Positions 20,879 to 32,569 of a stretch of 64,000 nt of DNA are shown here, piece after piece. The position numbers and the translations under genes were made by a program. The notes under the pieces are model-generated. The model worked only from the letters and a program-made list of their open reading frames with translations. It was not told the origin of the DNA and made no database searches. The first letter of the stretch is position 1. Each line of letters starts with the position of its first letter. Origin of the DNA: a virus; the IMG/VR virus record IMGVR_UViG_3300020473_002200, positions 124,001 through 188,000 of that record. One strand, given 5' to 3'.

Positions 20879-21517
20879 ATGAGAAGCAAATTAAGAACAT
20901 TAATTAGAGAAATGCTTGAAGATGAGCTTAGTCCAGTCGCTCCGCAACGAACAATACCCCAGAATGAATGGACTTTATTGCAGTCTGGTGATCCAAGAAG
21001 AGAGCAAGTAAAACAAAACTTATTCGATTTAGTGCAGCAAACATACGCTCCTATCGGTGGCCACTTTAAAATTACTAGTCCTGATAGTCTAGATAGATAC
21101 ACCTATTGGGTCGTTAAAGATATTGATGATGATGCAGATGTTGATGTTGCGATTATGGGAAAACCTGATGTCGGCGGAGTAAAAATGGGGGCCGCAGCAA
21201 ATGATGGCTCACCACAGGCCTCAGGGGAATATAAGAGCAAATCTGCAGAGCTTAGAGCTGGTGGATCTATTGCCGGTATTGGGAATTGGTGGGGTGAGGT
21301 TAGCGGAAAGCCTGCGTACGCCATGTTAAAAAGAGGCGCAAAGCCAGTTGAGGATGAAGCGAAGGTTGCACAATTACTCGCAGGTGATGACTATATTTTT
21401 CATGGAGAACACCCGGACCCAAATGCTCCGCCATTGTTTAAGAGCGCAAAGGGTTGGTATACTAAAAAGTTCGGAGCTAAAAGCTCAACAAAGATCATAT
21501 TGGGGAATCCAGCGTGA
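20879..21517 (+). CDS. tagged putative packaged protein, unknown payload
   Basis: 212 residues. N-terminus MRSKLRTLIREMLEDE is a divergent member of the tag family (I-R-E or L-E-D-E cleavage). Payload: PIGGHFKITSPDSLDRYTYWVVKDID, then a DVDVAIMGKP strand, a Gly-rich SIAGIGNWWGEVSGKPAYAMLKRG section and LLAGDDYIFHGEHPDP. The alternation of strands loosely recalls GNAT acetyltransferases, but no acetyl-CoA motif is certain. First gene of the tag cassette. Confidence 0.7.
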   Translation: MRSKLRTLIREMLEDELSPVAPQRTIPQNEWTLLQSGDPRREQVKQNLFDLVQQTYAPIGGHFKITSPDSLDRYTYWVVKDIDDDADVDVAIMGKPDVGGVKMGAAANDGSPQASGEYKSKSAELRAGGSIAGIGNWWGEVSGKPAYAMLKRGAKPVEDEAKVAQLLAGDDYIFHGEHPDPNAPPLFKSAKGWYTKKFGAKSSTKIILGNPA

Positions 21518-21705
21518 ACTTATTACGAGAATATATAAGCGCGCTATTAGAGTTTAGTATAAAGGCTAATAGGAAGAACACTCACCAAGATGGAACATGT
21601 CAAAGTCGTGGTTATATGAGCGGGAAAGATGTGACATGGACCGGCGACGATACAAATGACGAGCTGTATGGCTGGTATAAAAAAATGGGAATGATGGAGG
21701 ACTAA
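21514..21705 (+). CDS. short tagged protein (type B tag)
   Basis: 63 residues from GTG 21514, overlapping the previous stop. Tag MNLLREYISALLEF, then only ~48 residues containing WTGDDTNDELYGWYKKMGMMED. Too small for most enzymes; either a mini-payload or a truncated gene that kept its tag. Confidence 0.65.
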   Translation: MNLLREYISALLEFSIKANRKNTHQDGTCQSRGYMSGKDVTWTGDDTNDELYGWYKKMGMMED

Positions 21706-21944
21706 TGAAAGTCACAAAACGACAATTAAGAAAAATCATTTCAGAAGCGCTAGCACTGGATCTAGAAGTCGGCGATGTAATTCTTACTGGTCGTTTTAAA
21801 AACAAGAGAACAGTCGTAAAGAGTATTGGGACTGATGACATGGGCCAACCTACTATAAACGGGATGAAAGCGCTCAGCTTTAGAATAGAGAAGCTGATGC
21901 CAAAATCTAAATGGAGTAAAAAGTCTCTGGAGGAAGAAGAGTGA
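21705..21944 (+). CDS. tagged SH3-like small protein (type A tag)
   Basis: 79 residues. Tag MKVTKRQLRKIISEA, followed by LEVGDVILTGRFKNKRTVVKSIG and GMKALSFRIEKLMP, a compact all-beta barrel of the GDxI...V type. Close in style to many small phage barrel proteins of this window, here joined to a capsid-targeting-like peptide. Confidence 0.72.
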   Translation: MKVTKRQLRKIISEALALDLEVGDVILTGRFKNKRTVVKSIGTDDMGQPTINGMKALSFRIEKLMPKSKWSKKSLEEEE

Positions 21945-30436: not shown

Positions 30437-30969
30437 ATCTCCTACGCGAGTACATAAAAGAATTGCTATCTGAGAATAAGCTGTCCAGCGCTGAGATACA
30501 ACACCTGCAGGCCATCAAACGCGGTTCAAGACATGAACGACGACGACCTCAGGCAATCGTCATAGGCAGGCTAATAGATAAGGGTTTTGTAACCGGCGAT
30601 ATGAAAGGTAATCAATTTCTCCCAGGTTACGGCGCTTCATCTAGTGCTAGCAACCTTGCCATCACTCCAGAGGGTGAAGCAGCATTAAGAGCAACTTTAG
30701 GCAAGGCAGACTCAGACATGGCCAAGTACCAAAAGATAATAATGCAAGCGGTCATCGACGCTGCAGGCAGTTCGGTACCAGAACACGAGTTGCCAGGTTA
30801 CAACCCAAAGACATTCAAGCTAAGAGGAAAGTACCGCAAAGCGTTTGACGAGTTGCGTGGGTTCGGAAGTGACATCGACGCCTTAACGATACAGAGAGAT
30901 TCACAAGGCAACAGAATGGTTAGCCCAGGACCTGATTTTGAGCGTATTAAAAGCGAGTTAGGATTATGA
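30433..30969 (+). CDS. tagged protein with winged-helix-like payload (type B tag)
   Basis: 178 residues from GTG 30433. Tag MNLLREYIKELLSEN. LSSAEIQHLQAIKRG...AIVIGRLIDKGFVTG...LAITPEGEAALRATLG follows the helix-helix-helix-wing order of MarR/winged-helix domains, ending in T-P-E-G. A DNA-binding packaged regulator is possible. Confidence 0.65.
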   Translation: MNLLREYIKELLSENKLSSAEIQHLQAIKRGSRHERRRPQAIVIGRLIDKGFVTGDMKGNQFLPGYGASSSASNLAITPEGEAALRATLGKADSDMAKYQKIIMQAVIDAAGSSVPEHELPGYNPKTFKLRGKYRKAFDELRGFGSDIDALTIQRDSQGNRMVSPGPDFERIKSELGL

Positions 30970-31763
30970 AACTACTTCGCGAGTACATAAGAGAGCTACT
31001 GAAGGAAGATCCAATGGGTTTTGTTCAGGATCTCGCCGCGGCATCTGATCAATTCCGTGACGAAGACTTTAACGAGTTTCACGGCGGCAACCCAGGTAAG
31101 TCAGGAGGCAGGGCGATCAAGCGTGCATTTGCTGCCAACGCTGATTATAACTTTCTCAACTCCTTAGATACTGTTCATTGGATTAAAGACGCTTACAATC
31201 TCAAACCGCTCATAGGCAGATCTCGAGATGAATTATCAGCCACTATGACTCTGCCTAGCGAGCCTTTTAAAGCGCCAAGAGGTTTTAATGCTGACCTAGA
31301 GTTAGGCTTGTGGATAAAGGGTCGTATAACTCTGGCAGCCAATAGTCAAGACGACCTGTACACTGGTACTTACTTCGATTACATGAGAGGACGTGATCCC
31401 GAACAGTTTGAAAAAGATAAGCACCGCAAAGCATCATCAGGTGTAAACAAGAGACCCACTGTTTCAAAAGATTATAGCAGGTACGCAAAGCTAAAAAGAG
31501 GCAATGAGTACCATGAAAAGCTGGCCAGAAAGATTCCGTATGTTCTGGATCAGTCGACTTGGAATCCAGCTTCTATAAACGAGGCGCTAGTAGACAACTG
31601 GCGAGCAAAGGGACTGATTGTCTCGGACCAAAGTATTATCGATGCAATCAAGGACAACCCAGAAGGCGACGGTGTAGGCTGGCTAAAAGAATTTTATGAG
31701 ATGGCTGAGGTATTCGACGTTCCAATGTATGACACAGACAAAAACGTAATCTGGAGCCCGTAA
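30966..31763 (+). CDS. tagged protein, unknown payload (type B tag)
   Basis: 265 residues. Tag [15 protein letters not shown]. Helical and charged payload with KSGGRAIKRAFAANADYNFL, DTVHWIKDAYNLKPLIGRSRDEL and a region FDVPMYDTDKNVIW at the end. No assignment. Confidence 0.7.
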   Translation: MKLLREYIRELLKEDPMGFVQDLAAASDQFRDEDFNEFHGGNPGKSGGRAIKRAFAANADYNFLNSLDTVHWIKDAYNLKPLIGRSRDELSATMTLPSEPFKAPRGFNADLELGLWIKGRITLAANSQDDLYTGTYFDYMRGRDPEQFEKDKHRKASSGVNKRPTVSKDYSRYAKLKRGNEYHEKLARKIPYVLDQSTWNPASINEALVDNWRAKGLIVSDQSIIDAIKDNPEGDGVGWLKEFYEMAEVFDVPMYDTDKNVIWSP

Positions 31764-32569
31764 TGAAACTACTACGCGAGTACATAAGAGAACTTTTAAA
31801 TGAGAAAGCCCGAGTGCGCGGCTATATTAAGCCGTCTTCTTCTTTTCACACACTTCTACAGTGGGAGCTTGTGGTAGAAGAATTACTACAGCTTCAGAAG
31901 CAGGGTGTTGATACTCGAGGAGGCATGAGCTTAAATCAGAGACTACTTCAGATAATCGATGAATATTTTGGTTTTCAATACAATATCGAGGTAGAGAGGT
32001 ACGATCTCCTAACTCAAAAGAACATTTTAGACTTCATCGAGGATTTTACCAATCACAGATTTTGGGGACTGGAGAGAGAGTTCGGTAGTTATTTTCCCGA
32101 TATAAGTAAGTTGAAGTTTGCTTACTTCTATTCTCGTGGAGATCTTGAGCCTCATGTACTGATGGATGAAGAATTTACAACTCAGATTTATGGTGGTCTA
32201 GACAATCAAAAACGTCTTAGTCACTATACAACTCAAGCGGGAGTAGAAAGAATTCAGGCAGCTATTGACTCAGGTCGACCTTTCGATATATCATGTTTCA
32301 CCGTTGCGGAACGCCCTTTCTTTAGACCTGAATCTAGCTTGGTCGTGGAGTTAATAGGTAATGTTCGTGGGGGTTTTAGGAGTGATATTAAATCTGTCGC
32401 AGTTGATACTGGGCGCAGAGCATGTAATATGTATAGACTAGAGTACCCTGGCAAAGATCAGGATAATATTTGTAGAGAGCTGGACTCTTGTGATAGCGAA
32501 GTTCGTACTTCTTTGTGGAATGAATATATAGCGACGCCTGAAAAGATATTAAGCGTTAAGAAGGTATAG
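31763..32569 (+). CDS. tagged ART/KptA-like protein (type B tag)
   Basis: 268 residues. Tag [15 protein letters not shown]. The C-terminal half starts with KRLSHYTTQAGVERIQAAI, a pattern seen at the first strand/helix of H-Y-[EDQ] ADP-ribosyltransferases and RNA 2'-phosphotransferases, followed by FDISCFTVAERPFFRP, SLVVELIGNV and NEYIATPEKI, where a late Glu could complete a triad. Assignment is tentative. Last gene with a clear tag. Confidence 0.62.
   Translation: MKLLREYIRELLNEKARVRGYIKPSSSFHTLLQWELVVEELLQLQKQGVDTRGGMSLNQRLLQIIDEYFGFQYNIEVERYDLLTQKNILDFIEDFTNHRFWGLEREFGSYFPDISKLKFAYFYSRGDLEPHVLMDEEFTTQIYGGLDNQKRLSHYTTQAGVERIQAAIDSGRPFDISCFTVAERPFFRPESSLVVELIGNVRGGFRSDIKSVAVDTGRRACNMYRLEYPGKDQDNICRELDSCDSEVRTSLWNEYIATPEKILSVKKV

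Follow-up and report, generated by a model that had tools for sequence, protein, structure and literature searches.

An uncultured phage with a T4-type head module carries a block of fifteen genes with exchangeable N-terminal tags, a likely cassette of head-delivered cargo

The analysed window is a stretch of 64,000 nucleotides, i.e., bases 124001-188000 of the 188,264-base virus record IMGVR_UViG_3300020473_002200, which belongs to an uncultured phage; numbered gene coordinates are window positions unless they are marked as genome positions or carry the name of an L-locus. At positions 20879-32569, the plus strand carries exactly 15 tightly packed genes, most of which overlap by a few bases and all of which begin with a variant of one short peptide, termed here the tag, while the part of each protein behind it is termed the payload. 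These are the same fifteen genes in 11.7 kb, each starting with a tag variant, that had been pointed out in a preliminary description of this DNA. Based on the tag, the head genes and the related loci, we consider it likely that the block is a cassette of cargo genes with exchangeable T4-type capsid-targeting sequences (CTS), whose products are cleaved by the prohead protease, loaded into the head and injected.

The tags belong to two types and one further variant. Type A, which starts with M[KN], is present in ten of the 15 genes, and type B, MK[IV]TK.QLR[RK]IIxE (e.g. MKITKRQLRRIIRE), in four genes and in one internal copy. The block opens with the gene at 20879-21517 (212 amino acids, aa), which has the third variant, MRSKLRTLIREMLED, and continues with a 63-aa gene (21514-21705) that has a degenerate type-A tag ending in L-L-E-F. 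Type-B tags are found in the genes at 21705-21944 (79 aa; MKVTKRQLRKIISE followed by A), 21941-22909 (322 aa; VKITKRQLRRIIRE followed by S), 22909-23235 (108 aa; MKVTKKQLRRIIRE followed by V; the start was taken as 22909, the 22867 given by the open reading frame (ORF) finder lying upstream of the tag) and 23726-25006 (426 aa; MKIAKYQLRKFIRE followed by S), the last of which encodes an HD domain and a C-terminal domain. The remaining tagged genes are 25003-25959 (318 aa; MSLLRRYIREALISE followed by S), 25956-27080 (374 aa), 27080-27817 (245 aa; a weak candidate for an R-S-ExE ADP-ribosyltransferase), its paralogue 27814-28509 (231 aa), 28866-29456 (196 aa; from the most widespread type-A payload family, which has 19 members), 29453-30436 (327 aa; MKLLREYIRGLLQE followed by S), 30433-30969 (178 aa), 30966-31763 (265 aa; from a payload family with seven tagged members) and 31763-32569 (268 aa). 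A 16th tag copy, the type-B sequence MRITEAQLRRIVKE followed by S, lies internally and in frame at 22436 in the gene at 21941-22909; tandem genes may have fused here, the precursor may be cleaved twice, or the copy may mark an internal start. Chains with an additional, internal tag were also observed in L287:4845-5495 and in ORFs of L134, L090 and L072; some internal tags, e.g. GKITEAELRKIIREV in L287, have no nearby start codon, which suggests precursors that are cut twice.

Pairwise comparison of nine type-A genes showed 84.3% amino acid identity in the tag (residues 2-12) and 6.0% downstream of it (residues 16-40), and only 45.7% of the tag codons were identical. Since 84% of the tag residues but only 46% of the codons match, selection acts on the peptide and not on the DNA, and a conserved DNA- or RNA-level leader was ruled out on the same grounds. 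The earlier statement that the tag always ends in (L/I/V)-x-E holds for all 15 tagged genes, with the qualification that the position of the E varies (residue 13, 14 or 15); the tags of 25003 and 25956 are one residue longer and keep the x-E. When the motif was sought within residues 7-19, it was present in 15 of the 17 block genes compared with 40 of the 187 genes elsewhere in the genome (Fisher p = 5e-8). In scans whose pattern did not require the E, it was present in 94% of the type-B and 80% of the type-A tags, and conservation drops immediately past it. The sequences behind the tags had been described as mostly unrelated, and the only mutual homologues among them are indeed 27080 and 27814. 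In the structural models of the 28866 family and of 27814, the tag lies outside the fold and was modelled with low confidence (predicted local distance difference test, pLDDT, below 50 for residues 1-17 of 28866 and residues 1-31 of 27814). Within the 188-kb genome, the type-A tag is confined to the block.

The payloads are found with different tags in related loci. The payload of 20879 is 87% identical in L287/L024, in which its tag is VKITKRQLRRIIRE followed by S; in L133/L144/L147/L152 the tag is MDVLRQFIRQIILE followed by Q, and in L036 it is MQLVRKYVRALLIE followed by Q. Thus, four phage groups carry this payload with four distinct tags, all of which end in (L/I)xE. In L144, the payload of 31763 bears another tag, in L109, L115, L134 and L141 no tag could be recognised on it, and four payload clusters bear both tag types. 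The flanking genes 19267, 20277 and 20627 are common to the relative L287, whereas the cassette beyond them differs both in its genes and in their order, and includes a fusion between the 21514 and 27080 homologues. Because the payloads swap tags, the tag is a moveable module and not a remnant of duplication; simple duplication was ruled out by these swaps between loci. It is hardly credible that the genes are old duplicates whose common N-terminus was merely inherited. The paralogy of 27080 and 27814 and the repeated copies of several type-A payload families in one genome would fit such an origin, but payloads that are 59-87% identical bear different tags or none, the payload domains differ (HD, PAP2, RNase_T), and the identity of 84% in the tag stands beside 6% downstream.

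The destination of the tagged proteins is suggested by the head genes. The T4-type head module at 57-77 kb of the genome encodes a portal protein (phrog_213, 2.6e-70), a major capsid protein (phrog_138, 3.5e-74) and a gp21-type prohead protease at G000:C1:68554-68997 (Peptidase_S77 E = 3.7e-26; phrog_207 1.1e-49), on whose presence in the genome the earlier reading had been made to depend. The conserved H (GExxHP) and S (G[VI]SSRG[LV]GS) positions of the protease align with those of T4 gp21. In T4, the motif is visible in gp24 (start MAKINELLRE-S), in IPII/IPIII (start MKTYQEFIAE-A) and in gp23 (FLTE-A), and the E residues of these motifs are the established T4 cut sites. In the capsid protein of the phage studied here, ALRE-A aligns with the gp23 cleavage site FLTE-A, and other tag-bearing contigs contributed 17 capsid proteins, all with L-R-E or L-K-E at this site. 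Since the capsid protein has L-R-E at the gp23 site, the motif at the end of the tag is the protease motif that the capsid protein predicts. This aligns well with the published finding that gp21 cleaves after L/I-x-E (PMC9026906). With an aspartate in place of the E, processing in T4 is prevented whereas targeting persists (PMC9026906). The targeting of IPIII requires its first 10 residues, and such peptides were named capsid-targeting sequences (PMC9026906).

The tag was also sought on other genes of the genome, as the preliminary description had proposed, and type B was found outside the block in two head-module genes only. Both are head-core genes between the protease and the scaffold, and they start with type-B-like tags, KVSRAVLKSLVKE (MAKVSRAVLKSLVKE) and KLTPRILRRMIQEE (MKKSVKLTPRILRRMIQEE). 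They are the best matches to the tag profile outside the cassette in this genome, and the homologues of each, in 15 genomes, score among roughly the top 1% of ORFs with this profile. As head-core genes carry it, the tag looks like a head-core docking end that was borrowed by the cargo.

Several other genes with similar peptides were observed. A head-module gene at L005:13759-14304 (genome ~70.8-71.3 kb) has a tag-like peptide at its C-terminus, LKRVRMVIRKMLEDE followed by the stop, which is very like MRSKLRTLIREMLED and is possibly a C-terminal targeting or cleavage signal. Directly 3' of the capsid gene, L005:18088-19647 encodes a protein of 519 aa with a P-loop-like GPPAAGKG, the tag-like KLTRKDKLRNILKE followed by A near its start and no Pfam match, which may be head cargo outside the cassette. 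Two small genes among the replication genes, L007:9225-9722 and L007:10546-10782, have the tag-like starts MKVSIKDVVLDILSEE and MNTKLIREFIRLFLERS and are possibly isolated cargo genes. In L267 and L271, the capsid gene is directly followed by another copy of itself, whose start is almost the same and which perhaps encodes a gp24-type vertex protein. In the Microcystis phage Mel-JY01, a small and very basic protein of the head module bears the annotation ribosomal protein S21. The tag-bearing phages encode look-alikes of it between their protease and capsid genes (L298:22183-22410, L268:10546-10773 and L282:11097-11321), and the protein may belong to the core instead of the ribosome.

The tags are widespread in viral contigs. 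Degenerate DNA patterns matched more than 145 stretches in viral contigs of aquatic origin, at least 120 with type B and 26 with type A, compared with one match of a codon-reversed control pattern. With a relaxed scan, the tag loci (1.25 Mb) yielded 557 tagged ORFs and random viral contigs (0.91 Mb) yielded 4. In 18 large records, including this one, there were up to 22 exact-pattern copies per genome (16 of type B and 6 of type A), nearly all on one strand, and a backwards-pattern control had no matches. Altogether, 473 non-redundant tagged proteins formed 321 payload clusters, of which 257 were singletons. Every one of the 17 tag-bearing contigs that reach 120 kb has the protease (some of these contigs are closely related to each other), compared with one of four random contigs of that size; it was present in 24 of the 39 tag-bearing contigs of at least 60 kb compared with 3 of the 48 random contigs, which are shorter on average than the tag-bearing ones. 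A scan of 257 Gb of bacterial and archaeal genomes for type B yielded nine stretches, all in contigs of metagenome-assembled or single-cell genomes; these look like phage contigs in bins, because one of them equals in length a viral contig that the tag scan had found. A bacterial or host peptide was ruled out by the near absence of the tag from these cellular genomes. A search for close DNA relatives among phage isolates found none; a search of isolates with the tag peptide had its sole match in the uncultured LR756508, and the type-A tag had no match.

It could be argued that the tag sends proteins elsewhere, e.g., to the membrane, the replication compartment or the tail, and that its likeness to a protease site is coincidental, as amphipathic basic helices serve many targeting purposes. 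We regard this as very unlikely, since conservation stops at (L/I)-x-E, the predicted cleavage motif of the capsid protein, the head-core genes are tagged, and the protease accompanies the tag in every one of the 17 large contigs. The reading of the tags as head-targeting signals, which had been proposed in the preliminary description, agrees with the protease, the L-R-E of the capsid protein, the tags of the head-core genes, the tag swaps and the co-occurrence, all of which point, at the level of sequence, in the same direction.

According to the explanation that we favour, the first ~14 residues of each protein would be an exchangeable T4-type CTS. The amphipathic basic helix would attach the freshly synthesised protein to the prohead core, the gp21-type prohead protease would cut after (L/I)-x-E and free the payload in the head, and the mature payload would be trapped in the maturing head and enter the host together with the DNA. 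From the sequences, we strongly infer that the tagged proteins are packaged and cleaved, and we infer the docking of the tag to the prohead core. The injection of the payloads with the DNA is proposed less firmly than packaging and cleavage, by analogy with T4 Alt and IPI; on the same analogy, the payloads probably modify the host or counter its defences as infection begins. Loading may differ between the two tag types, either in the prohead site or in its timing.

The best-grounded payload function is that of 23726, whose HD domain (residues 21-156; phmmer 2.8e-10 to 7ohg) is related to the SpoT/RelA (p)ppGpp hydrolases, and its sequence supports a (p)ppGpp-hydrolase-like HD enzyme; the match to HD_4 (1.2e-5) was just below the Pfam cut-off. 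The C-terminal domain of this protein occurs alone with a type-A tag elsewhere. The payloads have a median length of 104 aa after the tag, and only 23726 shows two distinct regions. Among the tagged proteins of other loci, RNase_T, PAP2, Zeta toxin, AAA_33, DUF2608, ART-PolyVal and a phage deoxyribonucleotidase family were found as single cases, and a comparison with the defence-system families of PADLOC revealed nothing of note. These domains bear on the alternative that the packaged and cleaved proteins are not injected and act inside the head, as core scaffold, in DNA condensation or in head-size control. Such a role would account for the tags of the conserved head-core genes and for the absence of an enzymatic domain from most payloads; moreover, T4 gp22, gp67 and gp68 are core proteins that are cut by the same protease (PMC9026906). 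However, a SpoT-like hydrolase, RNase_T, PAP2, a Zeta toxin/kinase, ART-PolyVal and a deoxyribonucleotidase have no obvious function in a head, and the gene content of the cassette turns over between relatives, unlike that of scaffold genes. We therefore regard a role confined to the head as unlikely, and prefer cargo that is delivered to the host.

A number of results weigh against this interpretation. Only 6 Pfam families were found among 119 cluster representatives, and most payloads match none. In 27080/27814, RG-x-R is invariant, and SSW and E-x-E are present in the rows that reach them, which weakly suggests ADP-ribosyltransferases; the best PDB fold match, the ADP-ribosyltransferase (ART) Vis (4xzj), had an E of 0.39 and was not significant. 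Similarly, a GNAT acetyltransferase fold is weakly suggested by the models of the 28866 family, whose fold matches were mostly acetyltransferases or acetyl-CoA-bound proteins, with low TM-scores and a best E of 0.033, and were not significant. Sequence searches of the PDB with the 27080 and 28866 families returned no match. Furthermore, the type-B profile does not recognise the T4 internal proteins (T4 IPI scores -11), and the likeness of the tag to the T4 CTS MKTYQEFIAE, M-K-x-x-x-E-[YF]-I-x-E, is loose and was seen by eye only. A helical tag of this kind could serve another location. As the contig sample includes close relatives, the 17 of 17 contigs with the protease are not 17 independent cases. 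The T4-type late promoter TATAAATA was not enriched, a result that is uninformative. Finally, three genes within the block have no tag. They encode a 56-aa protein with a hydrophobic stretch and a coiled coil (23232-23402, plus strand), a staphylococcal-nuclease-like protein (SNase 1.3e-11; 23403-23729, plus strand), whose homologues in three related loci are tagless as well, and a ferredoxin-like protein (Fer4 1.1e-8; 28538-28864, plus strand).

Directly behind the last tagged gene lies a gene for a PAP2-family phosphatase (32572-33207, plus strand; 6.6e-11), which has only the short start MSSQLIMILKE followed by S. Its homologues bear full tags, one that begins with MEILREYIASIL in L288 and MENFMKEILKEE in L036, and therefore the block probably extends to 33207. 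A 717-aa protein that is encoded 3' of the cassette (33286-35439) has no Pfam match, and its C-terminal ~100 residues are similar to sequences from several tag-bearing loci. The window also encodes Hsp70/DnaK (57364-59256, 1.7e-259), a Cpn60 chaperonin (14688-16262, 7.5e-65), an ATP-type PEP carboxykinase (41611-43059, 9.9e-161), which seemed unusual for a phage, IMP dehydrogenase (19267-20280, 6.7e-105) and a T4-type RNA ligase (59940-61139, 3.3e-15).

Related tags were found in a cultured phage, Flavobacterium phage immuto, which infects Flavobacterium sp. LMO8. Its predicted cargo proteins are gp072, gp080, gp094 and gp095, with cuts expected after IIKE or its equivalent. Four of its genes start with MKKS.[LI]..[IAV][IV]..E, a pattern that was written after these genes had been seen and that matched 4 of the 416 immuto ORFs and none of 5,502 control ORFs. 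The immuto tags are one residue shorter than type B and are not picked up by the type-B profile. One of the tagged genes sits between the portal and protease genes, and a second N-terminal family, MENFDLKKFLxENKLT, is present on three genes. The corresponding site of the immuto capsid protein is IVSE-A, and the phage encodes homologues of cassette payloads. Because at least four immuto genes carry related tags, the proposed packaging can be tested at once.

The principle of such a system is known from T4. The T-even internal proteins were described as a highly diverse defence set in which only the targeting sequence is conserved (PMC3012670), and the CTS was proposed as an evolutionary route for packaging various proteins (PMC9026906). 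As in the block described here, IPI/IPII/IPIII and Alt of T4 carry a short N-terminal peptide with an L/I-x-E end on unrelated proteins whose payloads diverge (PMC9026906, PMC3012670), and T4 likewise has a gp21-family protease, a gp20-type portal and a gp23-type capsid protein in one genome. However, T4 has four such proteins compared with a block of 15 genes here and 22 exact-pattern copies in a related genome, and MKTYQEFIAE is replaced here by two interchangeable types of basic amphipathic helix. In addition, payloads of up to several hundred residues with enzyme domains are found here, unlike in T4, and tag swapping can be seen directly. The Dar system of P1 is similar in that an N-terminal signal leads to packaging in the head and delivery with the DNA, as was demonstrated for DarB, and the P1 signal suffices for a reporter (PMC9024508). 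It differs in that BLAST revealed no N-terminal consensus among the Dar proteins (PMC9024508), whereas a shared tag defines the system here. Phages phiKZ and SPN3US package many inner-body or ejection proteins, which a distant homologue of gp21 matures and which are delivered together with the genome, and the available portions of these reports describe no short tag common to unrelated cargo (PMC7411985, PMC9026906, PMC13282480); the phage studied here differs from them in its T4-type portal, protease and capsid protein. Polyvalent proteins are injected in a first wave and carry conflict domains (PMC5512222), and one tagged protein matches ART-PolyVal. They combine 2-15 domains per chain (PMC5512222), in contrast to the mostly separate small payloads with a common tag observed here. 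The earlier statement that such an arsenal appears undescribed can thus be upheld in part: the principle is that of T4, but the size, density, tag families and spread appear to be new. A literature search for these tag motifs and for marine capsid targeting found no paper, which is weak evidence since many journals were outside its reach. The system therefore seems to be a much enlarged form of that of T4, with a new scale and modularity.

As for the wider picture, we lean slightly towards the view that an aquatic, mostly uncultured T4-like lineage uses a general system of head delivery, in which tag-coding segments move between genes, a tagged gene becomes cargo, and each phage injects its own tens of proteins. 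If this is true, T4-like phages gain new cargo by swapping tags between payloads, and a motif of 14 residues reads off from the sequence alone which phage proteins are packaged and delivered. A single tag could then point to hundreds of uncharacterised proteins that phages may deliver into bacterial cells. With singletons making up most of the clusters and few members of known families, the payloads would offer a wealth of new candidates for counter-defence and host modification, and the tags would be natural signals for loading proteins into phage heads.

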